Part shown: positions 1-51,502 of the stretch, one piece after another
Layout of the letters: the number at the start of each line of letters is the position of its first letter
Numbering within the stretch: the stretch's first letter is position 1
Source of the DNA: a virus
DNA length: 51,502 bases
Virus record (IMG/VR): IMGVR_UViG_3300046722_000334
Coordinates: 1 to 51,502 of that record
Reading direction: 5' to 3' (one strand)
Translations under genes and position numbers: made by a program
Notes under the pieces: model-generated
Told to the model about the DNA's origin: nothing
The model's input: only the letters and a program-made list of their open reading frames with translations
The model's database searches: none

Positions 1-51
1 AGGAGGAGGAGGAGGAGGAGGAGGAGGAGGAGGAGGAGGAGGAGGTTCTTT
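1..51. repeat. Terminal direct repeat, left copy
   Basis: Fifteen AGG triplets followed by TTCTTT, identical to the last 51 bases of the window (51452-51502). The simplest reading is that the sequence is a closed circle (or circularly permuted) cut inside a low-complexity tract. The gene on the minus strand stays in frame when the two ends are joined, which supports true adjacency. On the minus strand the triplets are CCT codons for proline. Confidence 0.9.
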
Positions 52-720
52 CTCTTTAGTTCTTTCTGTTCTTTCTTCCTTATATATGCGTGGCTTTTTT
101 GGCTGCGCGCGATTACCGTTTAAGCGGCGCGCGATTACCTCTTCGAGCTCTCGGTAAGCGCGCGCGAGCTCCGCGAGCTCCGCGAGCTCCTCGGGGTTAT
201 CGAGCGCGATTACCTCATAACTCGAAGCCTTTATTTTCCAACGTTTTATGAGTGGTTTTAGGGGATTCCAGGACTCTGGAAACCAGGAAGGTAGTAATCG
301 CGCGCGATTACTACTTTTTTCCTTACCCTCTTGGGGGGTCGCCCACGAATATAACCGAAGTTGGTCCTTTCGTAAAGGCCCCCCCTCCAAAAATCTTCGT
401 TCTGCTAGACCGTATCCTTCGAGTTCTGACAGGCCGCGGGCTACGTTCTGCTTCAGTAACCCCGTTTGCTTGGCGATGTCGCTCTGCGTCAGAGGTCGCA
501 ACTTGCCGCCTATCTTCGTCAGGGCCATCTCCTGCTGGAACCCCATCGTGGCCAGTTCCAGACAGGCGTAGACGCGGCGCGCCTCGTTCGACAGCGAATT
601 GAGCATCATGCGCTCAGCGCGGTCTTTGGTATTGAAGTAATACCTGCCATCCTCAATCACAATCGGCTTCGAGTCCGCTCCTGTGATTCGGAATCCCTTG
701 CTGGCGGCTTTGGGCGTCAT
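1..720 (-). CDS. Replication-initiator-like winged-helix protein, N-terminal part; continues across the circle junction to 51053
   Basis: Reading leftward from ATG at 720, the frame is open to base 1 and continues in frame through the end of the window to a TGA at 51055-51053, giving about 372 residues with one copy of the CCT tract. Residues about 75-110 form a helix-turn-helix (LTQSDIAKQTGLLKQNVARG followed by LSELEGYGLA), of the type seen in phage O-like replication proteins and replisome organisers. A linker with ELA repeats and a lysine/arginine-rich stretch follows, then about 17 prolines. The start overlaps the stop of the upstream gene (ATGA). Position in a leftward early operon with a DnaA-like gene fits DNA replication. 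The assignment to replication is inference from the HTH, the context and the repeats embedded in the gene; another DNA-binding regulator is the main alternative. Confidence 0.72.
   Translation of the reverse strand, partial: MTPKAASKGFRITGADSKPIVIEDGRYYFNTKDRAERMMLNSLSNEARRVYACLELATMGFQQEMALTKIGGKLRPLTQSDIAKQTGLLKQNVARGLSELEGYGLAERRFLEGGPLRKDQLRLYSWATPQEGKEKSSNRARLLPSWFPESWNPLKPLIKRWKIKASSYEVIALDNPEELAELAELARAYRELEEVIARRLNGNRAQPKKPRIYKEERTERTKEKEPPPPPPPPPPPPPPP
107..311. other. Candidate replication origin: iteron-like repeats inside the initiator gene
   Basis: The 10-mer GCGCGATTAC (GTAATCGCGC on the coding strand) occurs at 107-116, 129-138, 204-213 and 302-311, plus once inverted at 294-303. 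The gene reads the repeat in two different frames: copies at 129 and 204 encode V-I-A, copies at 107 and 302 encode N-R-A. This argues that the DNA word rather than the peptide is conserved. To the left lie a T/pyrimidine-rich stretch (46-100) and the AGG tract. Lambda-type phages place their iterons and an AT-rich unwinding region inside gene O; this resembles that layout. Binding by the encoded protein is inference. Confidence 0.5.
164..190. repeat. Three tandem copies of a 9-bp repeat, GCGAGCTCC
   Basis: Perfect tandem copies at 164-172, 173-181 and 182-190, each containing the palindrome GAGCTC. On the minus strand they encode E-L-A three times, part of an amphipathic helix in the initiator linker. 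They lie between two of the iteron-like 10-mers. Confidence 0.8.
291..314. repeat. 24-bp perfect palindrome
   Basis: The half-site GTAGTAATCGCG is followed directly by its exact complement, so two copies of the GTAATCGCGC word face each other. Six T residues follow on the plus strand. With no spare loop bases, and lying inside an antisense coding region, it fits a dimer binding site better than a terminator. Confidence 0.7.
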
Positions 721-1592: not shown

Positions 1593-2534
1593 ATGGCTGC
1601 TATAGAGTCTACTCTCGTCCTGCAACTCGCGCGTGATAAGTTCACTGCCGCTCTGGTCGCTCCGAATACCGAACGCGGCTATCGCTACGACTGGCAGGCC
1701 TTCGAACGGTGGTGTGAAACCGTAAACCGAAGCGCGCTTCCCTGCTCCGCCGAAACTCTGGGGCAGTATGTGGCGCACCGCCTGGAGGAAGGACGCAAAA
1801 CTTCGACCGTCGCGCGCAATGTAGGAGCCATCGTCAACGCTCATCGCTCGCGGAAGTTCAAACCACCAGCCACAGACGAAGCTCGCAGCCTGTTGCGTGG
1901 AGCGCGCCGCCTGCGAGCGGAACACCTCCGCACAGTGCGGCCGTTGTCGCTTGCCGATCTGCGCGCCATAGTAGCACCACCAGACGGAGCCTCCGATCTC
2001 CGGGCCGTCCGTGATCGCACTATCGTGCTGATCGGCTTCGCTTCGAGCCTGCGCACTGCGAATCTCAGCTCGCTGCAATTGAACGACGTCGAATTCTCGG
2101 ACCAGGGGGCCACCCTCCGCATTGGCCGCGAGAAACAAGACCAAGAAGGCAAGGGCCGCTTGATTGGCTTGCCCTATGGGAAACATCCGGAGACGTGCCC
2201 GGTGGGCGCCCTGCGCTCTTGGATTGCGCAGCGCGGGCAATTTCCCGGGCCGTTGTTCATCCGGCTTTGCAACAATCAGCCAATCGAAAAGCCGATGCAG
2301 CCGGAGAGAATCGGCCAGATCGTGCAGCAGTGCGTGGCGCGGATTGGTTTGAACTGGCGGGAATACGGGGGGCACAGCCTGCGCGCTGGCTTTGTCACTG
2401 CGGCGGGCGAGGCAGGCATCGGTGAGTTGCTGATCGCGGCGCAGACCGGACACCATGACATGGCGACCTTGCGGCGGTACTTTCGCAGAACGGACGTCTT
2501 CCGGGCGAACGCCTGCGGACTCTTGGATCTTTAG
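1593..2534 (+). CDS. int: Tyrosine recombinase / integrase
   Basis: 313 residues. An N-terminal SAM-like DNA-binding domain (about 10-115) is followed by a phage-integrase catalytic domain. Visible catalytic residues are R154 (SSLRTANL), a lysine around K181-K187, H261 and R264 (GGHSLRAGF), H287 (QTGHHDM) and the tyrosine nucleophile Y296 (RRYFRR). Length and spacing are normal for the family. AAAGGA lies about nine bases before the ATG. Such enzymes integrate and excise temperate phage genomes at attP/attB; related xerC-like enzymes resolve dimers. Without an attP core I cannot name the target site. The convergent neighbour at 2764 is a LuxR-type HTH gene. Confidence 0.93.
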   Translation: MAAIESTLVLQLARDKFTAALVAPNTERGYRYDWQAFERWCETVNRSALPCSAETLGQYVAHRLEEGRKTSTVARNVGAIVNAHRSRKFKPPATDEARSLLRGARRLRAEHLRTVRPLSLADLRAIVAPPDGASDLRAVRDRTIVLIGFASSLRTANLSSLQLNDVEFSDQGATLRIGREKQDQEGKGRLIGLPYGKHPETCPVGALRSWIAQRGQFPGPLFIRLCNNQPIEKPMQPERIGQIVQQCVARIGLNWREYGGHSLRAGFVTAAGEAGIGELLIAAQTGHHDMATLRRYFRRTDVFRANACGLLDL

Positions 2535-5638: not shown

Positions 5639-5994
5639 ACCTCCAGCAAGCAGCCCGCTATCAAGGCGAGCTCCGGACCTGCTGCCGGTGCGGTATAGAA
5701 TTCCTGTCCGACCGCAGCACGAAAAGAGTCTGCGGCACTTGCAAACGCCCCGCCGTGCGGCCGTACTGCCCGGTAGCCTCGCTACTCGGCAAGCCGCTCT
5801 CACCGCGCGAACGGCAGATCGGCAAACTGCTAGTCGAAGGCCTGCCCAACAAAGAAATCGCCTGGTGCCTCAAATTGAGCATAGGAACTATCAAGGTGTA
5901 CTCGTCGGCGCTGTTCGGCAAGCTGGGATCGCGCAACCGCATGCACGCCGCTGTTATGTTGGCGACTACGGCGGCCGATCGGCTTCTCGTTTGA
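5635..5994 (+). CDS. Zinc-ribbon plus LuxR-type HTH protein
   Basis: 119 residues from GTG 5635. Cys pairs at 16/19 and 33/36 (CCRCG, CGTCK) form a likely zinc ribbon. Residues about 54-104 are a LuxR/GerE DNA-binding domain (LSPRERQIGKLLVEGLPNKE, then IAWCLKLSIGTIKVYSS). It lies directly upstream of the terminase genes, a location where a late-gene activator would be useful. It shares the fold but little sequence with the minus-strand protein at 2764. A role as late regulator is inference from position. Confidence 0.75.
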   Translation: MNLQQAARYQGELRTCCRCGIEFLSDRSTKRVCGTCKRPAVRPYCPVASLLGKPLSPRERQIGKLLVEGLPNKEIAWCLKLSIGTIKVYSSALFGKLGSRNRMHAAVMLATTAADRLLV

Positions 5995-6537: not shown

Positions 6538-8252
6538 CCGCAACCCTGTCGCCCGCCGAAGCCGCCGCGTTGATCCGGGGATTCTCGGATCACAGCAAAT
6601 TCTGCGAGCACCTGACCATCCGGAACAAGGAAGGCGTTGCGGTTCCCTACCGGACCTCGCCCGCGGGTCTCAAGCTCAACCGCGCGATCCGGAAGCAGGA
6701 ACAGGCCGGCCAGCCGGTGCGCATCGCCATGCTGAAGGCCTCCCAGGTCTTCGCCTCGAGCGCCGTCGCTACTGAGATTTTCCGCCGTGTCCCGTTTTTC
6801 CCGGGCCGCCGCGCCCTGGTGCTCGCGGACACGGACCAGCATGCAGGCCTCGTTTTCGAGTATTACCAGCAGTACATTCGCAGCTATGAAGACAACCCCT
6901 ACGGCTCGGAGTTCGACTCGGCCGTCAAGCTCCCCGAGCTGGTGAAGGACACAGACCGGCATATCCGATGGGGCAACGATTCCTCGATCCTGGTAGGGAC
7001 CGCGAACAATGTGGAAGTGGGCAGAAGCGCCCCGTACAACTGGGTGCAGCTCTCCGAAGCGGCCTTCTACCGGGACATGGGAACGCTCATGACCGGCCTG
7101 ATGCAGCGCGTCCCGAATTCCCCCGATTCGGGCGTCATCGTAGAATCGACCGCCAACGGCATGGGGGGCGACTTTTACGACCTCTGCCAGCGCGCCATGA
7201 ACCCGCGGCAGGCGAGCGGCTGGGCCTTCGTCTTCTTTGCGTATTGGGAGCATCCGGAATACCGGTTAACGCCGGAGCCCGGCTTCAAAATCACGGCGGA
7301 AGAGCTGGGGGAGTTGCAGAAGTACAACCTCCGCCTCGATCAAATCGCCTGGAGACGCCGGCAGATCGAGACGGCCTGTGAAGGCAAGATCGAACGCTTC
7401 CGGCAGGAGTTCCCCGGCAACGCGCAGGAGGCATTCCAGGCGTCCGGTCGGACTATCTTCGACCTGGCGGCCATCGCCCGCATGCCGGTAGTGGACGACG
7501 CCCCCAGGGGCAAACTCGAAGTGGTCGAAGTAGGAATCGAGAAGCGGGTACAGTTCGTTCAAGGACTCGACGGACGCGGAGAAGTTGTCATTTACAAGAT
7601 GCCGCGCAAGGGAGGCCGCTACATAATCGGCGCGGACCATGCCGAGGGGATCGACCCCAACGCGAAGATGGGCTCTTCGGACCCCGATTATTCTTCCGCC
7701 ACTGTGATAGACGCGGATACCGGCGAAGAGGTCGCGAAGCTCAAAGAGCGCTACGAGCCGCATCCGTGGGCCACGCGGCTCTACTGGCTTGGCAAGTTTT
7801 ACAACTGGGCCTTCATTTGCCCGGAGCAGAAGGCGGTAGGGAAAGCGGTAATCGGGCATCTGCTTACCCTTCAGTATCCGCTGGAACTGATCTACTCAAA
7901 GCAGCGCGACCCGAGCGACCGCAGAAGCCCCATGCTCCAGGAACTCGGCTTCGACACCAACACCGTGTTTCGGCCGGTGCTGATCTCCGGACTAGACCAG
8001 GCGCTCCGCGAAAGCTCGATCCGCCTCCACGACCCGGAGACGATTGCGCAGTTGCGGCAATTCGTGCGGAAGCCGAACGGCCGGGAAGAGGGCATCAGCC
8101 ACGATGACGATGTGTTCGGCTTGGCCCTGTGCGTCGAAGGCCTCCCGTACGCGCGCAAGGCATTCCTCTACCGGGAAGCGCAGGACAAGCAGACCAGCAC
8201 CTGGAAACCGCAGCGGTACGGACAGCAAGCGAGAGATGACGATGACGACTGA
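6534..8252 (+). CDS. terL: Terminase large subunit (packaging ATPase-nuclease)
   Basis: 572 residues. The P-loop position is deviant (MLKASQVFASSAVAT, about 66-80), lacking the usual Gly-Lys-Ser/Thr signature. A Walker B-like strand carries E175 (WVQLSEAAFY) and a coupling motif follows (VIVESTANG, 201-209). The C-terminal nuclease half shows acidic residues D368 (YIIGADHAEG), D383/D385 and the D524-D526 cluster (SHDDDVFGLALC), consistent with an RuvC/RNase H-like metal site. It translocates DNA into the prohead and cuts concatemers. Length and neighbours are typical. Confidence 0.92.
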   Translation: MTATLSPAEAAALIRGFSDHSKFCEHLTIRNKEGVAVPYRTSPAGLKLNRAIRKQEQAGQPVRIAMLKASQVFASSAVATEIFRRVPFFPGRRALVLADTDQHAGLVFEYYQQYIRSYEDNPYGSEFDSAVKLPELVKDTDRHIRWGNDSSILVGTANNVEVGRSAPYNWVQLSEAAFYRDMGTLMTGLMQRVPNSPDSGVIVESTANGMGGDFYDLCQRAMNPRQASGWAFVFFAYWEHPEYRLTPEPGFKITAEELGELQKYNLRLDQIAWRRRQIETACEGKIERFRQEFPGNAQEAFQASGRTIFDLAAIARMPVVDDAPRGKLEVVEVGIEKRVQFVQGLDGRGEVVIYKMPRKGGRYIIGADHAEGIDPNAKMGSSDPDYSSATVIDADTGEEVAKLKERYEPHPWATRLYWLGKFYNWAFICPEQKAVGKAVIGHLLTLQYPLELIYSKQRDPSDRRSPMLQELGFDTNTVFRPVLISGLDQALRESSIRLHDPETIAQLRQFVRKPNGREEGISHDDDVFGLALCVEGLPYARKAFLYREAQDKQTSTWKPQRYGQQARDDDDD

Positions 8253-37323: not shown

Positions 37324-40300
37324 ATGCCTAGTTCCTTCAGCACTTGGGCGGACGAACCGTCCCCGGCCAAAAGCGCCCCGCCTCCGCCAGCCCCAGCCCC
37401 CCCCGGCGCACGCTTCAGCGCCTGGGCGGACGAGCAGCCGTCCGGCGTCACCGCTTCCCCCTTGCCCGCCGCTCCCGGCGCCACCGGTCCCGGCACACCG
37501 CCGGCCAGCGGCCCGCCTACCGTCTACGGCCCCCGGAATCCCGATCTGCGCAGCGTGAAGCCGCCGTACGCGCCAGCGGCCCCGCCTCCCGCCGCTGCGA
37601 CCCCCCGCACCGGCCCACAGATTCTCGCAGAAGAGCCCGCTTCGCTCCCAAAGCCACTGGATGTCTACCGCCGTCAGCCCGGCACCCCTCAGTACACGGG
37701 TCCACAAGGGCAAACGGTAGATACATCGCATCTGGCATCTACCAACACCGACAGCCTCGCTCAAGCTGGAGCGGATCTGCGCGACCTCTTGCTTGGTCCC
37801 GCCTATGGCAACCCGTTAAAAGCCGCGTCGACCACCGAAAAAGTATTAAACGGCGTGCTCCGCGCCACCGCCTCCATCTCCACCCCGGAAAGCATCGCTC
37901 TATGGCTTACCGGCGTCGGCGTTGCTGCGCAATTACCTAAGTTGGCGGAGACCGTAACGGGCGCGCGTATACTCTCCCAGAATCCCCGGCTCCGTAACGC
38001 CGTAGACATCGTGACCCGTAACGCGGTTCCTTTGGCTTTCGGCACCCAACAAACCGCAGTGGGTGTGCCGGAGACGATCCAGGGCATCCAAGCAGGCGAT
38101 CCGGAGCGAACCACGCAAGGACTGGCCAGTCTTGCCTTGGGAGGCGCCGGACTCTATGCCGGGGCCCGCGGCATGGCCGAAACCGCCGGCACGCGGGAAG
38201 CGCTCCAGACCCGCTTGAACGCCGAAGAGACCGCCCGCGCCACTGCCGAACGCCAGGCTACCGCCCGCGCGCCGCGCTTGGCCGCTGCCGGGGAACCCTC
38301 GCCTCCCGCTCCTGGAACGCCCCCCCCCGCGCCGCCTCCCGTACAGGACCTTGGGAAAGGATGGTCGACCTCTCCAGCAATCAGTAAGCTCGAATCCACA
38401 ATTCAAGAAGCGGAACAACAAGCCGTAAGCGAACGTGCGCCTGCTCCGGCTTCAGGCGTCCGAGTACGTCCGACCTCTCCAGTCGTGCCGGTTATGCCTC
38501 CGAGCCCTGCCGCGGAACCTGCTGGCGCGCAAGGGACCGCACCGCAGGAAACAGGGATACAGGCACCGCCGAGGGAGCAGACCGCCGAGGAGCAGCAACG
38601 CAGCGACTTTTACGCGCCTGGCAATATCATCTACACCCACTACTGGCACAAGTACGATCGCGTGCTTGAATCCTGGCAGGCTACCGACCGTCCGCAGGGA
38701 GACTGGGGAGTCTTGGTGCAGGAGTCCGACAAGTACGGGAATCCGGTTCCTGGCACTGAACCCCGCTGGCATCGCACACAACCGGATCCACGCGACAAAA
38801 TCGTGGGAAAAGTACAAGCGCAACCCGTTACCCCACAAATCGCCGCGCCGCAGGAAACGGGAGTACCGGCACCGCCGGTTGAAACGGGGCCTCCTCCAAA
38901 CCAAGAACTCCCCGAGCAAGTGGCACAGAATCAGCCGATCGCGGAAACGAAACCACCAGAAACCACAACTCCCCCACAAGATCTAGGGAAAGGATGGACT
39001 ACACCAGTTCCAGAGGTTAGCCCTTCGAGCCCTGCTCCGGAAGCTGAGGCCGCACGTGTGTCGGGAGCGCAGGAGCCGAAACTTATCACTGCGCGGCCAT
39101 CTCTCGGCACGACAGGAAGGGATATTTACCAGGGCTGGAAAGCTCTTACAGAGACCACTAGCCCGCCACGAGCCACCATCGAGGGATACGTTCCAGGTAC
39201 AGGGCGCTTTGATTTTCGCAACGGCAAGATAGTCAGGCTGCAAACGGAAAGCACTAGGCGCGGCAACGTGAGCACTTATCGAGATGCGACTCCTGCGGAA
39301 ATCGGAGAAATCCACGATGCTATCGACCGCGGCCAGTTCCAGGTAGAACAGCGCACGATCAGGGGCGCTCTTGGGGTCCGGCAATTCAGTGACGCTGGAG
39401 CCCTTGAAAAGGTGTTTCACCAAGCAACAGGCCGCCCGCTTCCAGAATTCCTTGGTACCAAAGAAGGGCAAGATTGGGCGCGGCGCACGCACTATCGGGA
39501 AGAGCCCCCTGTCCAGTCCCCCGCTCCAGAAACCATCACAAAACCCGAAGATTCGCTCAACACAGCCTTACGAAACCGGGCAAAAGTAGTTGCCGAGTCT
39601 CAGCGTCAAGAGCAGTCTCCCGAACCCGGGCCCGTCATCTTTGGTAAGCCGGGGACCTACTCCGGTACGATCCGCATTGAAGCGCGTTCAGGTGATCCGA
39701 TCTACGGTGATCGCGTGTATCTAGAGAAAAGGAAGGGATCAAAAGAGTGGAGCGTGAGAGCGAGGGACTATGAAACGCTTCCCGGTGAGAAGTTCCCGGC
39801 GCACTTGGAACAGACAATTGCATCAGGCCTGACACTGAAGCAGGCAAAAGCCCTCTCTCAGCAGCGATTGCAGTCTGGTGAGACGTTTGACAGGACCCGA
39901 CCCGCGTATCACCCAAACGGCAAGGCCGTAACGCTTCCGCCTCGGCAGCAGGCAGCGGGTAGCCCTCCGAGCCACTCCCTAGCTCCTGTGGAAGCGAAGC
40001 CCTCCCGCCGCCCCACCCAGCGCGGCAGTTTCAGCCGCAAGCCCAACAAGCCCCCCCAGCAGGGCACCATCGAAGAGCTGAGCGCCGCCATTGGCGAGCA
40101 CGGCGCCCCGGAAAGGCCCTCCTCCGAGAAGGTAACAACCGTAGGCGATGCCCGCGAGCGCGTCAAGGAGGCCGTAGACAAGTTCAAGGGCAGCATGAAG
40201 GCCTTAGGCAAGGCCTACACGAATCCCCGCAGCTCGATCCTGCTCCCTGCCAGCGGCAAGGATGTGAGCGACTACGAGCGCGCCTTGGGCCACTGGTCCG

Positions 40301-42228
40301 GAGCCGATAACCGCGCCGCCTTCCTGCTATATCGCTTCCGGAAAGCCGCAGAAGAAGCCGTGCCCTCACCAGCCGTGCGCGAGGCAATGACCAACTGGAT
40401 CCAGGCGGGCGGCGATGACAAGCTGCTCGCCCAGCGCGCGGCAGACTCGCGGCGCGGCCTGAAGACCCACCGCTACGCCAAGGGCTACGAGGACGCCCAG
40501 CATCTCACCCAGGAAGAGAAGCACGTGGCCAAGGACATCATCGGCTACAACGACCGCGTATTGCGCCAGATGCAGGAAGCCGGGATCTTGTCAGAAGGCG
40601 TCGTAAATTACGTGACGCAGTTGTACGAGAAAGAGCCCGTGATCCTCAACAAGGTGATGGCGCAGGCCAACCTAGATGGGCTGATGACGCGACCGTACTT
40701 CGTGAACAAGCGGACGTTTGAGAGCTACTTCGACGCCGAGCAGGCCGGGTTCAAGCCGCGCAACAAGGATGTCTTCTACCTGGCTGCAGCGCATGACCGG
40801 GCTTTGCAGGAGGCGCTGGCGGCGCGTGAGTTCGTCAAACGGCTGAAGGATGGAGAAGCCTCCGACGGTCGGCCGCTGGCGATTACCTCATGGGCCACCG
40901 CGCGGGAAGTTCCCGCCGAGAATGAACCCGGCAAGGCGCTCATGATCTCGCCCAACACGAGCAAGGAAGGCGAATTCGCGGATTACCTGCCGCTCGATCA
41001 TCCCGCTTTGCGCGGCTGGCGCTGGGCCGCGGAAGACTCCAAAGGCCAGTCTATTGTGGTCAAGGGCGATGTACTGGTGCATCCCGAGATTCACCGGCAC
41101 TTGAAAAACAACCTCAGCAAGGGCGGTATCTCCAATTTCTCATTTGAGGCTGGCGGCCAGGTCTGGAAGCCCGGCGAGCGCGCGCTGCGCATCAACGCCG
41201 GACTGAAGCACGCCATCTTCATGCTGAGCCGGTTCCACGAGACGACCCTAGAGTCGCATGCGCTAGAGCACCGCACGAACCCCTGGAACCTAGTCGACCT
41301 GGACATGCAAGACCCCAACCAACGCGCGCTGATAAACGGCGGCTTGATGGTGGCGCACTACGAAGGCATGGACGCCTTCTCCGAAGGACTCACCGGTCCG
41401 AACCTCCGCAATGTACCAGGCATCGGGCCTTTCCTGCACGGCTACGTGGACCATCTCTTCAAGGAAAAGATACCTGCCTTGGCGATGAACGTGGGACTGC
41501 ACGCGCTCGAGCGCAACCGGGCCCGCTACGCTGGCCAGTTCACCGACGCGAAGATTGCGCAGATCACCGCCAAGCAAATGAATGCGGCCTTTGGCACCAT
41601 CAACTACCGGCTGCTGGGCCGCAACCGGACGCTACAAGAAACGCTGCGCCTGCTCTTCATGGCACCGCAATTCCTCGAGGGGCGCGCCAAGTTCGTGGCT
41701 CAGGCTTTCCGGCCGCAAGGGCGGGAGCAGCTCTGGGCGTACCTGCTGGGCGCGGCCGGATTTCTGACGCTGGCTCAGGTTGCTAACATCCTCGTCAACG
41801 GAAAGCCTGACTGGGAAGATCCGTTTGCGGCTAAGATCTTCGGCAAGATCATTTCGATGCGCTCGGTCCAAGAGGACACTTGGCAGGCGCTGACCGAGAC
41901 GGGCCGCTTCCTCCACAACCGCCTGGGACCGCCGGCCAGTTTCCTACACGATTACATCGGAAGCAAAAACATCTTCGGCGGGAAACAGACCTTGGGGCAA
42001 GGGGCACTCGAGGCCGCACGGCGCAACGTGCCGATCCCAGTGCAACCCTGGACCCGCACCAGCAAAGCTACGGTCGAGGAACGTATTGCGGAGACCATCC
42101 TGCGGGCCATCGGCATTAACATCCGCAACCCGCGGGTGAAGGCGGCGCCGGCCGGCCGACCGCCCGCCCGCGATCCGGCCGCTGCGATGCGGCGCCGCCA
42201 AAAGCAGTTGACCCGACCGCCCCGCTAG
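37324..42228 (+). CDS. Giant ejection/internal virion protein
   Basis: 1,634 residues. The first ~330 residues are Pro/Ala-rich with FSTWADE/FSAWADE near the start. Pro-rich repeats recur (QDLGKGW at about residues 340 and 555; PQETGxxAPP twice). A long conserved helical region spans about 930-1600, with FLLYRFRKAAEEAVPSPAVR, ESHALEHRTNPWNLVDLDMQ and one hydrophobic stretch (LWAYLLGAAGFLTLAQVANI, about 1470). Size and plan fit podovirus internal virion proteins that form a transenvelope channel. No lytic transglycosylase motif is obvious. Last gene of the late operon. Confidence 0.7.
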   Translation: MPSSFSTWADEPSPAKSAPPPPAPAPPGARFSAWADEQPSGVTASPLPAAPGATGPGTPPASGPPTVYGPRNPDLRSVKPPYAPAAPPPAAATPRTGPQILAEEPASLPKPLDVYRRQPGTPQYTGPQGQTVDTSHLASTNTDSLAQAGADLRDLLLGPAYGNPLKAASTTEKVLNGVLRATASISTPESIALWLTGVGVAAQLPKLAETVTGARILSQNPRLRNAVDIVTRNAVPLAFGTQQTAVGVPETIQGIQAGDPERTTQGLASLALGGAGLYAGARGMAETAGTREALQTRLNAEETARATAERQATARAPRLAAAGEPSPPAPGTPPPAPPPVQDLGKGWSTSPAISKLESTIQEAEQQAVSERAPAPASGVRVRPTSPVVPVMPPSPAAEPAGAQGTAPQETGIQAPPREQTAEEQQRSDFYAPGNIIYTHYWHKYDRVLESWQATDRPQGDWGVLVQESDKYGNPVPGTEPRWHRTQPDPRDKIVGKVQAQPVTPQIAAPQETGVPAPPVETGPPPNQELPEQVAQNQPIAETKPPETTTPPQDLGKGWTTPVPEVSPSSPAPEAEAARVSGAQEPKLITARPSLGTTGRDIYQGWKALTETTSPPRATIEGYVPGTGRFDFRNGKIVRLQTESTRRGNVSTYRDATPAEIGEIHDAIDRGQFQVEQRTIRGALGVRQFSDAGALEKVFHQATGRPLPEFLGTKEGQDWARRTHYREEPPVQSPAPETITKPEDSLNTALRNRAKVVAESQRQEQSPEPGPVIFGKPGTYSGTIRIEARSGDPIYGDRVYLEKRKGSKEWSVRARDYETLPGEKFPAHLEQTIASGLTLKQAKALSQQRLQSGETFDRTRPAYHPNGKAVTLPPRQQAAGSPPSHSLAPVEAKPSRRPTQRGSFSRKPNKPPQQGTIEELSAAIGEHGAPERPSSEKVTTVGDARERVKEAVDKFKGSMKALGKAYTNPRSSILLPASGKDVSDYERALGHWSGADNRAAFLLYRFRKAAEEAVPSPAVREAMTNWIQAGGDDKLLAQRAADSRRGLKTHRYAKGYEDAQHLTQEEKHVAKDIIGYNDRVLRQMQEAGILSEGVVNYVTQLYEKEPVILNKVMAQANLDGLMTRPYFVNKRTFESYFDAEQAGFKPRNKDVFYLAAAHDRALQEALAAREFVKRLKDGEASDGRPLAITSWATAREVPAENEPGKALMISPNTSKEGEFADYLPLDHPALRGWRWAAEDSKGQSIVVKGDVLVHPEIHRHLKNNLSKGGISNFSFEAGGQVWKPGERALRINAGLKHAIFMLSRFHETTLESHALEHRTNPWNLVDLDMQDPNQRALINGGLMVAHYEGMDAFSEGLTGPNLRNVPGIGPFLHGYVDHLFKEKIPALAMNVGLHALERNRARYAGQFTDAKIAQITAKQMNAAFGTINYRLLGRNRTLQETLRLLFMAPQFLEGRAKFVAQAFRPQGREQLWAYLLGAAGFLTLAQVANILVNGKPDWEDPFAAKIFGKIISMRSVQEDTWQALTETGRFLHNRLGPPASFLHDYIGSKNIFGGKQTLGQGALEAARRNVPIPVQPWTRTSKATVEERIAETILRAIGINIRNPRVKAAPAGRPPARDPAAAMRRRQKQLTRPPR

Positions 42229-42535: not shown

Positions 42536-42576
42536 GTGATTCTCCTTTGGAATCAGCGTATCATCTCATCAGCCAT

Positions 42577-43173
42577 ATGAGAGCCGCTATTTACGCCCGC
42601 GTTTCGACAAAAGATAAAGGACAGGAGACCGAGAACCAACTCGTCCAGCAGCGCGCCTACGCCAAGGCCTTGGGCTGGGAAGTCCGAGAGTTCATCGACC
42701 ATGATCACGGAGACCGCAGCGACCGCGAACAGTTCCAGGCCATCTTTACGGCCGCCTCAAGGCGTGAAATCGATGTAGTGCTCGTCTGGGCGCTCGACCG
42801 ATTCACCCGCGAAGGTGTCGCCGAAACCTTCATCCACATCAAGAAGCTCCTGGACTACGGCGTGCAGTTCGAAAGCTTGACCGAGCCGCACTTCCGCACC
42901 ACCGGGCCCGCCGGCGAGCTCATGATCGCCATCGCCGCCTGGATTGCCAAGCAGGAGCGTATCCGCATCTCGGAGCGCACCAAGGCCGGCCTGGCGATCG
43001 CGCGAGCCAAAGGTCACATTCCCGGCCGGCGCCCCAAGGTCTTCGACCGCGACCGCGCCCGCAGCTTGCGCAACCAGACGCCGCCGGTTAGCTGGCGCGC
43101 GATCGCCCGCGAGCTCGGTGTGGCCGAATCCTCCATCCGGGCCGTGCTCAACCGCAGCACCGTGCCCGGCTAA
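42577..43173 (+). CDS. Serine recombinase (resolvase/invertase type)
   Basis: 198 residues from ATG 42577. Begins MRAAIYARVSTKDKGQETEN with catalytic S10. Typical resolvase motifs follow: DVVLVWALDRFTREGVAETF, then FESLTEPHFRTTGPAGELMI. A helix runs into a C-terminal HTH (PPVSWRAIARELGVAESSIR). Such enzymes resolve, invert or move DNA segments. TCTCA and TGAGA flank the start region (about 42564-42582) and may be an operator. Function as dimer resolvase or as switch for a tail segment cannot be decided. Confidence 0.9.
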   Translation: MRAAIYARVSTKDKGQETENQLVQQRAYAKALGWEVREFIDHDHGDRSDREQFQAIFTAASRREIDVVLVWALDRFTREGVAETFIHIKKLLDYGVQFESLTEPHFRTTGPAGELMIAIAAWIAKQERIRISERTKAGLAIARAKGHIPGRRPKVFDRDRARSLRNQTPPVSWRAIARELGVAESSIRAVLNRSTVPG

Positions 43174-44891: not shown

Positions 44892-45218
44892 ATGAACATC
44901 TACGAACGAAGTGCCCACCGCCCTTTGACCGATTCCGAATTTATCGCCCGTGATCACGAGCACGCCATGCGCACCGCCCGGATGCGCCGGGAAGCCGACC
45001 TGCGCACTGAATACGGCGAGGAGCCCGGCTGCACCATGACCAGGAAAGAAATTCTGCAAGGAATTGACGCAATGCAGCGAGTCCAGATGAACAATCCACC
45101 CTCCTCTGAGAAGTGGCAGCGCGCATCGGAGGCCCTACGTAAACTAGCTGGACTCCTGAACCGCACAACCATTACCCCTGAAATGTGGGATGCGGGGGTT
45201 ACGGAGGCGCAATCATGA
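44892..45218 (+). CDS. Hypothetical protein, first gene of the rightward operon
   Basis: 108 residues, helical and charged (ARDHEHAMRTARMRREADLR), with a C-terminal half KEILQGIDAMQRVQMNNPPS and LRKLAGLLNRTTITPEMWD. GAGG lies shortly before the ATG. Stop overlaps the micropeptide start. As the first product of a strong controlled promoter it may be an early regulator, but no family is recognised. Confidence 0.65.
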   Translation: MNIYERSAHRPLTDSEFIARDHEHAMRTARMRREADLRTEYGEEPGCTMTRKEILQGIDAMQRVQMNNPPSSEKWQRASEALRKLAGLLNRTTITPEMWDAGVTEAQS

Positions 45219-47219: not shown

Positions 47220-47371
47220 ATTGGGAAGCCGAAGTGCGTTGGAACCTGGCCAAGAGAGCCGATGACGAACTGGGGAACCCTTACGCCGAGGCCCGGATGT
47301 GGCGCCGGCTATGCTGGTTGCTGATCTTCTTCGATGTGATCTTAGGCGGGGTCTACTGGGCGAGCCTGTAG
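47216..47371 (+). CDS. 51-residue small membrane protein
   Basis: From GTG 47216, overlapping the previous TGA. A charged helix (NWEAEVRWNLAKRADDEL) is followed by a C-terminal membrane segment (LCWLLIFFDVILGGVYW). Last gene of the rightward operon; it overlaps the convergent methyltransferase gene by 30 bases. Confidence 0.6.
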   Translation: MNWEAEVRWNLAKRADDELGNPYAEARMWRRLCWLLIFFDVILGGVYWASL

Positions 47372-47980
47372 ATACTCCATTACCTGGCGGCCGATGAATT
47401 CGGAGTAAGCCGGGGGAATAGCTTCCCGTGTTTCGTGGCGACTCATCCAGGGGACTCCCATTTCGTTGCGCCACAATTTCTCGGGATCTTGCCGCCCGAA
47501 CTCCGCGTAGATCCGCTTGCGACTTTCGGACCGATGCGGATTCAAGACCGGCTCGGCGGCGAAACAATCTGGCACCAGCGCGAAAACGAAAGGCGATTCA
47601 AAAAGCCGGTGCCGGTGGACCCGCATGCCAAAATGTGTCCCGCAGAGGATCAGCGGCTCACGAAGCGGCGCTCCGAGCACGTTCTCGATACACCACGCCG
47701 CACCTGAACACTCCAAGCGTTCGCGCATGGCGTCGATAAGCATCGGCTGAGGAGTCGCCAGATGCCGCATTGCTGAGGAGTAGGACTGACACGGCGGGCT
47801 TGCCCAGATGAAATCAAACCCTTCTAGCGGAAACGTGAGTGCATCGGCCTGGTGGAACTCGTCTCCGATGTAACGGGGCTGAGGCTTGATGTCCACGCCT
47901 GTCACGTGGAAGCCTGCCATCTGAAGGCCTTTGGTGGCTCCGCCAGCTCCGCAAAAGAGATCCAGGGCGCGAGGATTCAT
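47342..47980 (-). CDS. DNA (cytosine-5) methyltransferase, short phage type
   Basis: 212 residues from ATG 47980. AdoMet motif I LDLFCGAGGATKGLQMAGF (7-25), motif IV with catalytic C64 (ASPPCQSYS), motif VI ENV (99-101), and a motif X-like end (PPAYSEFIGRQVMEYL). The target-recognition region is very short compared with full-length restriction-type enzymes. Without a partner endonuclease nearby it is an orphan methylase, likely protecting phage DNA from host restriction. Overlap ATGA with the upstream gene. Confidence 0.9.
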   Translation of the reverse strand: MNPRALDLFCGAGGATKGLQMAGFHVTGVDIKPQPRYIGDEFHQADALTFPLEGFDFIWASPPCQSYSSAMRHLATPQPMLIDAMRERLECSGAAWCIENVLGAPLREPLILCGTHFGMRVHRHRLFESPFVFALVPDCFAAEPVLNPHRSESRKRIYAEFGRQDPEKLWRNEMGVPWMSRHETREAIPPAYSEFIGRQVMEYLQARPVDPA

Positions 47981-48189
47981 GACGCTTTCCCCTTCCACGC
48001 CGCACTCCACTGCGGCTGAGTCAGTAGAGGCACGCTGCGCCACTCGAGCCATCCTTCGATAGTTCCCAGCACCATCGCTTCTTGTTCGTCTGGGGAAAGC
48101 TCCGGCCTCACAATTGAGATTGCGTGGAGCAGGAACCCCATGGCGTCTTCTATCGATTCGTCGGTTAAATGGTCAAACTGATGGCTCAT
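47977..48189 (-). CDS. Small hypothetical protein
   Basis: 70 residues, helical and acidic (TDESIEDAMGFLLHAISIVR), with a Trp-rich end (IEGWLEWRSVPLLTQPQW). Coupled at both ends to its neighbours by ATGA overlaps. No family. Confidence 0.6.
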   Translation of the reverse strand: MSHQFDHLTDESIEDAMGFLLHAISIVRPELSPDEQEAMVLGTIEGWLEWRSVPLLTQPQWSAAWKGKAS

Positions 48190-49247: not shown

Positions 49248-49898
49248 TCAATCTACGCCGAATTTAATGTGCGCGCGCACGATCGCGCACAGGGCCCTGT
49301 GCTCTGAGGGCCTGTCGGTGGTGTGGGCGGCGCCGGCGGCGGCGACGTAGGCGGCGGCGGCGGAGGAGGCGGCGGCGGCGACGGCGAAGTCGGCGGCGGA
49401 GGCGGAGTAGGCCGCGGCGGAGGCGGCGGCGTAGGCGTAGGCTGAGGCGTAGGCGGCGGCGGAGGCGGCGTAGGCTGCAGCGGAGGCTACGGCAGCGGAG
49501 GCGAAGTCGTAGTCGGAGGCGGCAGACGCTGCGGCGTAGGCGGCGGATGAGGCAGCGTAGGAGGCGGCGGAGGCGGCGCAGGCGGAGGCCTTGACCTCCT
49601 CTAGTACTGCCTCTCCGCGCGTCCACCTCTCTGCTGTCTCAATCGCTTGCAGCGGGCCCCGGTCACCAGCGGGTACAAAGCGCAAGGCGCGACGGGCGCA
49701 CTGGCAGGCGCACCACACCAGTTTCCCGCGGTCCACCTTTGCTTTGGCTGCCCACCAGAGGAGCCAGTCGGCGCGCTCGCATTGCTCCCACGCTTCAGCA
49801 GCAGTGCGGGACTCTAGCCATTTCATGGCTGCGGCGCATGCGGATTTGCCTTCGAGCCAAGCGCGGAATTCGGTATTCGTTTGTGGAGATAAACTCAT
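49248..49898 (-). CDS. Ala-rich protein similar to putative Imm-like immunity proteins
   Basis: 216 residues. The N-terminal ~100 residues (FRAWLEGKSACAAAMKWLES; CERADWLLWWAAKAKVDR; LQAIETAERWTRGEAVLEEV) match a family widely labelled putative immunity protein. The middle ~85 residues are Ala/Ser/Tyr repeats (SAAYAAASAASDYDFASAAV), a low-complexity helical stack typical of this family. The end is ALCAIVRAHIKFG. GGC/GCGGAGG-rich DNA underlies the repeats. In phages the family function is unknown; toxin immunity is only a database label. Confidence 0.7.
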   Translation of the reverse strand: MSLSPQTNTEFRAWLEGKSACAAAMKWLESRTAAEAWEQCERADWLLWWAAKAKVDRGKLVWCACQCARRALRFVPAGDRGPLQAIETAERWTRGEAVLEEVKASACAASAASYAASSAAYAAASAASDYDFASAAVASAAAYAASAAAYASAYAYAAASAAAYSASAADFAVAAAASSAAAAYVAAAGAAHTTDRPSEHRALCAIVRAHIKFGVD

Positions 49899-50194
49899 AT
49901 CGCCCAGATCCCGCTTTCATCGATAAAGTTTGGATCGTAGGGCTTCTGCCTGGCGGCTTCTTTGGCCACGTGGTAGCAGACCGCCGAGTGGTGGATGTTC
50001 AAATGGCGGCCGATCTCCTCCACGGTCAGCCCCATTTGCCGCAGGTCCCAGCAGGCCTGGCGCCGCGCCATCACGCAGGCGTGCCGATGGCTTCCCGCTA
50101 GAACCTGGCCCAAGGTCACCCCGTAGCGCGCCGCGGATTGAGCGACGATCTCTAGGATTTTCACGCGGGGCTGACGGACGGTACGGAGCCTCAT
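49895..50194 (-). CDS. DnaA domain IV-like helix-turn-helix protein
   Basis: 99 residues from ATG 50194, GAGGAGG eight bases upstream. ILEIVAQSAARYGVTLGQVL, then ARRQACWDLRQMGLTVEEIG and HHSAVCYHV follow the DnaA C-terminal DNA-binding domain (compare the DnaA signature around EIGR and H-S-T-V). There is no ATPase domain. Such stand-alone domains in phages may bind DnaA boxes and steer host replication. It shares the operon with the initiator-like gene, which strengthens that idea. Confidence 0.75.
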   Translation of the reverse strand: MRLRTVRQPRVKILEIVAQSAARYGVTLGQVLAGSHRHACVMARRQACWDLRQMGLTVEEIGRHLNIHHSAVCYHVAKEAARQKPYDPNFIDESGIWAI

Positions 50195-50457: not shown

Positions 50458-51060
50458 TTAGTCTGGCTTTGGCGGGTCATCAATCCCGAGCCGTTCGAGT
50501 TGTTCGCGTTTTCGCTGTTGCTCTTGTTCCCATAAATGTTGGCCGTCCCGTAATATTCGGTCAACATCAAACTGTGTAAGCGGTTTCCTTTCTAGGCGTG
50601 GTTTTGTTTCGGTCGCTGCAATCCGCCGCTCTACGTCTTCGCGCTCCGCCTCTTCCTTCAGGGCGAGTTGATGCCCCTTAACACCGCCATACTCGCAGTA
50701 GTCATAACGCGGATCGCAGAGAACGCATGGGCGCGCTAGTTTTCCTTGCTCTATCAATTCAGCACGGCCCAACGGAGCAATTTCTTTTTGAGGCGGCGCG
50801 TATTTGCACTGGAACAAAGAGCGCAGTTGCTGCGTCCCTCCGCGATCAGGCCAGCCGTTCTCCCACGTCTCGCGCGCCTCTTCGACCAAGCCCGCGGCCT
50901 GCCTCTCAGGAGACCAGACCACCCCATTGATGACAGCTCCTTTGCACCAACGGATCAGATCCATAGCTGTGGCTTCAATTGCCGCCTGTTGGTAAGGGTG
51001 GCCTATCGACACAAGCGAACCGGCCAAATTGAGAGCCACCTCGTGCCGTAGTTCAGCCAT
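50458..51060 (-). CDS. Hypothetical protein with Cys motif, replication operon
   Basis: 200 residues from ATG 51060, which overlaps the stop of the initiator gene by eight bases; an in-frame ATG at 51135 lies within that gene and is unlikely. Contains EWSPERQ-like VVWSPERQAAGLVEEARETW, a Cys set (PCVLCDPRYDYCEYGG), and a charged coiled coil (LWEQEQQRKREQLERLGIDD). Position after the initiator suggests a replication partner such as a helicase loader, but no loader motif is present. Confidence 0.6.
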   Translation of the reverse strand: MAELRHEVALNLAGSLVSIGHPYQQAAIEATAMDLIRWCKGAVINGVVWSPERQAAGLVEEARETWENGWPDRGGTQQLRSLFQCKYAPPQKEIAPLGRAELIEQGKLARPCVLCDPRYDYCEYGGVKGHQLALKEEAEREDVERRIAATETKPRLERKPLTQFDVDRILRDGQHLWEQEQQRKREQLERLGIDDPPKPD

Positions 51061-51502
51061 TGCCGGCCTCCTTGGCGCGCTCCTCATAAAGTTCGCGGAC
51101 TCGCTGTTCGAAATAACTCTCCTTTGCTGGGCCACGCGGCTTCCCCAGATAAGGCGGCGGGTCCGTCCCGTAGATCTTCAGCCAGTTCGAAGCCAGGGGC
51201 ACCCAGCGGCCTTCGTCGTCCTCTAGCGACCGAATCCATCGTTCGGACTTCCGGTAAACGATCACTTGCTCCAGGACTCGGCATTGCTCCGCGTTGCTCA
51301 GGGCTTCAAAAGCAGGTTTGGTTTTGCCTTCATCGAACTTCTGGCTGGGGTATGCGGTTTTGAATTGTTGATAGAGAGAATCATCCTCCTCGTCCTCCGC
51401 TTTTGCCGGAAGGTGTTCGAGTTGTTGATCTTTTACTAAAGGCAGAGGAGGAGGAGGAGGAGGAGGAGGAGGAGGAGGAGGAGGAGGAGGAGGAGGTTCT
51501 TT
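51053..51502 (-). CDS. Replication-initiator-like protein, C-terminal part (continues from base 1)
   Basis: The frame enters at the window end through 17 CCT proline codons, then LPLVKDQQLEHLPAKAEDEE, a helical segment (YQQFKTAYPSQKFDEGKTKP), FEALSNAEQCRVLEQVIVYR and KSERWIRSLEDDEGRWVPLA, and stops at TGA 51055-51053. The segment NAEQ...VLEQVIVYRKSERW...WVPLASNWL resembles C-terminal regions of phage helix-turn-helix replication proteins. Joined to the part at 1-720 it gives about 372 residues. Confidence 0.7.
   Translation of the reverse strand, partial: KEPPPPPPPPPPPPPPPPPLPLVKDQQLEHLPAKAEDEEDDSLYQQFKTAYPSQKFDEGKTKPAFEALSNAEQCRVLEQVIVYRKSERWIRSLEDDEGRWVPLASNWLKIYGTDPPPYLGKPRGPAKESYFEQRVRELYEERAKEAGNG
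51446..51502. repeat. (AGG)17 tract and right terminal repeat
   Basis: Seventeen AGG triplets (51446-51496) followed by TTCTTT; the last 51 bases equal the first 51 of the window. The right copy is flanked on both sides, so 17 is the better unit count. Homopurine/homopyrimidine mirror repeats of this kind can form triplex or G-rich structures. Encodes poly-proline on the minus strand. Confidence 0.9.

Follow-up and report, generated by a model that had tools for sequence, protein, structure and literature searches.

The window analysed here is a whole virus record of 51,502 bases (IMGVR_UViG_3300046722_000334), and its subject is a gene for a putative replication initiator together with the repeats lying inside that gene. 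The open frame starts at an ATG at 720 on the minus strand, crosses base 1 and ends at 51053. The two termini of the record are identical over 51 bp (1-51 and 51452-51502), within the AGG tract, which looks like the assembly overlap of a circular contig that annotation should count once. With the overlap counted once, the true gene is 720..1 plus 51451..51053 and has 372 codons, coding for 372 amino acids (aa), whereas naive joining of the ends gives 389 aa in which the proline run appears a second time as a duplicate. An independent contig (IMGVR_UViG_3300046727_000502) spans the cut with 100% identity and carries exactly 17 AGG units. Thus, the single minus-strand gene and the (AGG)17 tract of the initial annotation were confirmed, the former after removal of the overlap.

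The putative initiator gene and its internal repeats

The features of the locus, by position in the record, are as follows.

1..720, minus strand: 5′ part of the initiator gene, codons 1-240 in the record, with the PHROG 678 match
1..45, plus strand: AGG repeat coding for a polyproline linker, 17 units once circularised, lineage-specific
46..94: A+T-rich tract TATATAAGGAAGAAAGAACAGAAAGAAC..., purines on the coding strand, proposed unwinding element (from duplex stability and relatives)
98..117: putative iteron I5, one good arm GGTAATCGCG
120..139: putative iteron I4, one good arm GGTAATCGCG
153..172: putative iteron I3, one good arm CGCGCTTACC, the other arm degenerate and overlapping GAGCTCGCG units
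164..190, plus strand: three tandem GCGAGCTCC units coding for ELAELAELA, lineage-specific, not seen in relatives
195..214: putative iteron I2, near-perfect dyad GGTAATCGCGCTCGATAACC (homologous dyads in relatives)
291..314: putative iteron I1, perfect 24-bp dyad GTAGTAATCGCGCGCGATTACTAC (repeats, dyad scan and synonymous shuffles)
343..588, minus strand: winged-helix DNA-binding domain, residues 45-126 (AlphaFold model and Foldseek)
~415-453, minus strand: predicted recognition helix KQNVARGLSELEG, residues 90-102 (AlphaFold model)
51053..51502, minus strand: 3′ part of the initiator gene and its stop; 51452-51502 duplicates bases 1-51

The N-terminal helix-turn-helix that had been noticed in the translation is predicted by AlphaFold to be a winged helix; after it come a linker rich in proline and a small, helical domain at the C-terminus. 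Confidence (pLDDT) was mostly 68-89 in the blocks of the domain, with a dip to 54 at the wing, 81-89 in the recognition helix and 63 for the whole model. Foldseek matched the predicted domain to MarR-type winged-helix structures, while a search of solved structures by sequence gave weak matches only, mostly helix-turn-helix. The window protein matched PHROG 678, annotated as 'replication initiation O-like', with an E-value of 8.1e-5 (lambda O, 1.7e-35); the window protein and its relatives match this family in the winged-helix domain with weak scores (E 1e-5 to 1e-2). The protein of one relative, L038, resembles that of the window in the type of its C-terminal domain and matches PHROG replication-initiation and primosomal families, including PHROG 270 over both domains. 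On such profile comparisons, the window protein appears to be only a remote relative of lambda O.

The 10-mer GTAATCGCGC occurs five times in the 51.5-kb record, always inside the initiator gene (codons ~136-205), at 107, 129, 204 and 302 on the minus strand and at 294 on the plus strand. The copies at 302 and 294 together form the 24-bp palindrome 291-314, so that four copies run one way and one is inverted, as first described. A sixth copy with one mismatch, CGCGCTTACC, lies at 153-162 on the minus strand. Dyads of 20 bp describe the array better than 10-mers do. At least four copies of any 10-mer within 300 bp were found in none of 60 first-order Markov genomes, and outside the array such clusters occur in the record only in the AGG tract and in a repetitive, alanine-rich gene near 49.4 kb. 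Under permutation of synonymous codons with the protein unchanged, a dyad as good was obtained in 0 of 300 trials and the 9-mer repeat count was equalled in 3 of 300. Copies of the 10-mer are read in two codon frames (V-I-A and N-R-A, which hold as originally given) and in both orientations. Since synonymous shuffles rarely match the array, and two frames and both orientations are used, the repeat signal resides in the DNA.

The tract at 46-94 adjoins the array, downstream in the direction of the gene, and the duplex there is less stable than in any other 40-bp stretch of the genome. A similar tract is present at the same place in most relatives, being poorer in L031 and L034. The initial annotation had also counted the GCGAGCTCC units and the (AGG)17 tract among the parts of the origin. 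Both exist, with one further GCGAGCTCC copy at 5666, but neither is conserved in relatives and we rejected them as origin components; they are probably lineage-specific coding repeats, judging from the sequences compared. Relatives carry other repeats or none at the AGG position, and the simple repeats after the tract, where present, vary between phages.

Dyad words and predicted recognition helices in relatives

The family was found through a terminase search that led to the record L014, followed by profile searches of IMG/VR and the addition of one contig from a metagenome-assembled genome (MAG). It comprises 12 distinct members, the window included, all of which share the winged-helix domain, and the linker-coding DNA was inspected in each. 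Among the 11 terminase-relative records, mostly fragments, only that of L014 had an initiator match. Neither the window protein nor the L014 protein had a match among 50,697 phage records (INPHARED), and the window protein had none in 84,980 bacterial and archaeal genomes. A two-sequence profile identified in the latter set one MAG contig, labelled Solibacteraceae, and 396 genomes of the phylum of this MAG gave no match beyond the same MAG. A search of the literature, limited in extent, found no description of the family, which is not proof that none exists.

The initial annotation had proposed to look for the same 10-mers in the same gene of related phages. The protein is kept and the exact 10-mer of the window is lost in every relative. 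Dyads centred on CGCG are present at the homologous place in all distinct members except L037, and it is the arm words around this core that differ: GTAATC in the window, GGGGAC in L014, GTAGCC in L028, L030 and L053, GTAGTC in L031 and L034, GTAACT in L035, GTAGCT in L037, GAGGGT in L038, CCAGTC in L039 and CCCCCC in L060. Within one phage, later copies tend to reuse its arms. When the word was defined on the first dyad of each member (the later one in L037) and scored on the rest of the linker, a member's own word reached a mean of 24.25 of 27 and the words of the others 20.23, and none of 20,000 permutations was as good. In synonymous shuffles of 10 members, the observed dyad was reached in at most 13 of 300 trials for 8 of the 10; dyads of single members are not always beyond such shuffles (27 of 300 in L034).

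The arms also vary with the reader. In a set of 13 sequences, arm distance correlated with helix distance at residues 88-96 (Mantel r 0.64, p 0.0006), and the window of residues 90-98 ranked first of 121 nine-residue windows in partial correlation after removal of overall divergence. K/R-Q at residues 90-91 was found in all 8 distinct members with GTA arms and in none of the 4 others (Fisher 0.002, ignoring relatedness). L053 and L060, which came to light only once the pattern was known, fitted it. This covariation is suggestive of joint change of reader and word, and because the sequence set is small and related it is not proof. As the relatives swap the word at the same positions along with changes in the recognition helix, loss of the exact 10-mer, which the initial annotation had set out as a refutation, gives stronger support to an origin rather than refuting it.

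One pair of relatives points to exchange of the whole block. L039 and L041 share 77-98% identity per 60-bp block across ~660 bp that begin close to the start codon and run on to where the tract ends, with unrelated flanks on both sides, which indicates that DNA-binding domain, iterons and tract can move jointly into different initiator genes. The two have one arm word in common, so exchange was seen here and word change was not. A comparison of L028 with L035 as a middle-swap recombinant was ambiguous in outcome. We offer only tentatively, as a possibility somewhat short of even, that a mobile cassette of ~660 bp moves between initiator genes and that its word is rewritten around the fixed CGCG core, perhaps in response to origin-recognising competitors or nucleases. 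If so, the pairs of helix and arm would be readable as a recognition code, in which N at residue 92 would go mostly with T and H with C, and K/R-Q at 90-91 with GTA arms.

The origin reading and its alternatives

The gene very probably encodes an initiator of the lambda O type and holds its own replication origin, as the initial annotation had proposed; layout, word prediction, covariation and the PHROG 678 match all support this. An N-terminal winged-helix dimer would bind the five ~20-bp dyad iterons in the linker-coding DNA, each made up of a CGCGCG core and phage-specific arms (GGTAAT...ATTACC). The filled array would distort the DNA and, with negative supercoiling, open the adjacent tract at 46-94, upon which the C-terminal domain may recruit host DnaB, either by itself or with the help of an unrecognised loader, for which the product of the next gene is one possibility.

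Several observations weigh against this interpretation. Dyads I3-I5 are half-degenerate, and L037 lacks the first dyad (a later one is kept) and scores no better than its own shuffles. The covariation rests on ~12 related sequences, and windows 75-83 and 34-43, outside the helix, come close to it in score. The window protein gave no match to Pfam Phage_rep_O (PF04492) at E up to 1, which lambda O matches at 5.7e-36, and a profile alignment with lambda O by hhalign was weak (E 0.012, probability 3.5%), with the N-terminal domains in register at ...SWATPQEGK / SEWCIPQNEGK. Finally, the raw cumulative GC-skew minimum, which the initial annotation had expected at the origin, lies away from it at 45,178, with the raw maximum at base 45. 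In lambda, the same analysis put the detrended minimum at 39,890, near ori, and the raw minimum at base 103, for which reason GC skew was not taken as decisive; we think that in the window phage it mainly tracks gene direction and is hence a poor test of an origin, and it was rejected as an origin marker.

The alternative that survives best, though improbable, is that the dyads are operators through which the protein represses or activates its own transcription, with no role at an origin. Its winged helix is indeed similar to MarR regulators, and L030 has an extra perfect dyad copy at 7999-8023, just after the likely start codon and far from the array, which could be an autoregulatory operator. 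However, among the members scanned L030 is the only one with an exact extra copy outside the linker, and the sites of the window are well within the coding region (400-620 bp in), beside an easily melted tract, with those of relatives at homologous places. The PHROG links also point to replication initiators, with the primosomal families matched by L038, whose C-terminal domain is of the window's type.

It is slightly less probable still that the dyads bind another factor (a host protein, a phage repressor, the DnaA-domain-IV-like protein or the methylase described below) and that the initiator protein merely recruits helicase. Genes for a helix-turn-helix protein like the DnaA C-terminus and for a C5-methyltransferase do lie in the same gene block, but the arms co-vary with the initiator's own recognition helix, and the ~660-bp segment shared by L039 and L041 indicates that site and reader travel together. 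Very unlikely, and the weakest of the three, is that the repeats are coding or RNA-hairpin features of a repetitive linker peptide with biased codons: many copies do encode V-A-A-R or V-I-A in one frame, so that repetition is partly at the peptide level, and this is plainly the nature of the GCGAGCTCC units and the AGG tract, but the copies use two frames and both orientations, the dyads are rarely reproduced by synonymous shuffles, and single-arm copies are unable to form hairpins of their own.

Gene neighbourhood and comparison with known origins

The following genes lie around the initiator gene or bear on the lifestyle of the phage.

50458..51060, minus strand: next gene (200 aa), without a family match; a candidate helicase-loader partner from its position alone
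49895-50194, minus strand: 99-aa protein like DnaA domain IV only (PF08299, E 2.6e-7; PHROG 27829)
47342-48052, minus strand: C5-cytosine methyltransferase, in the initiator's gene block
1593-2534, plus strand: tyrosine integrase
42547-43173, plus strand: serine resolvase

Homologues of lambda P, IstB/DnaC and DnaB were not detected in the window (PF06992, PF01695 and PF03796), which leaves room for an unrecognised loader. The DnaA-domain-IV-like protein, encoded just downstream in the initiator's gene block, is a possible auxiliary origin binder, judging from its match. As a tyrosine integrase and a serine resolvase are present, the phage is probably temperate. At 717-992 on the minus strand there is a small CxxC protein whose stop overlaps the initiator ATG, and by eye a similar small protein lies upstream of the L038 initiator (7714-7992). 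Elsewhere, a 216-aa alanine/serine/tyrosine-rich gene with dense GCCGCC/CCTCCG repeats (49248-49898, minus strand) and a 1634-aa open frame with no Pfam match at E 0.05 (37324-42228, plus strand) were observed.

In lambda, each iteron is a 19-bp inverted repeat bound by O as a dimer, and the neighbouring tract is purine-asymmetric (PMC5043065, PMC7466680). The window resembles O and ori-lambda (and the Stx phages 933W and P27) in that the origin would lie in the middle of the initiator gene, in the DNA coding for the linker that separates a DNA-binding N-terminus from a C-terminal domain; inverted-repeat iterons and, next to them, an A+T tract whose purines lie on one strand are likewise shared (PMC5043065, PMC7466680). 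The lambda-type architecture was recognised in an in-gene inverted-repeat array between two domains and an adjacent, easily melted and purine-asymmetric tract of ~40 bp; its downstream helicase loader, lambda P, had no homologue detected in the window. Iterons and tract occupy codons 117-145 and 145-161 of 299 in lambda, and 136-207 and 211-225 of 372 in the window. Unlike in lambda, the window's dyads are GC-centred, with I1 perfect over 24 bp, its sites span ~215 bp, the late ones being one-armed, its protein is remote from O, and in its family the arm word changes from phage to phage while the core stays fixed. Initiators that read repeated semi-palindromic sites are also known from iteron plasmids and from the PLE RepA origin with the ICP1 Odn nuclease, with exchange of replication modules and diversification of iterons (PMC8263062); by contrast, the sites of the window family lie inside the gene and are dyads.

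The origin reading would widen the known range of the lambda-type in-gene origin to a phage family from environmental samples that is apparently uncharacterised. It would also provide ~12 initiator domains, each matched with its origin word, on which joint change of specificity is testable, here under simultaneous constraints on protein, codons and DNA, as the site is written inside the coding sequence of its own reader, and it suggests a simple route to locating origins in uncultivated phages.
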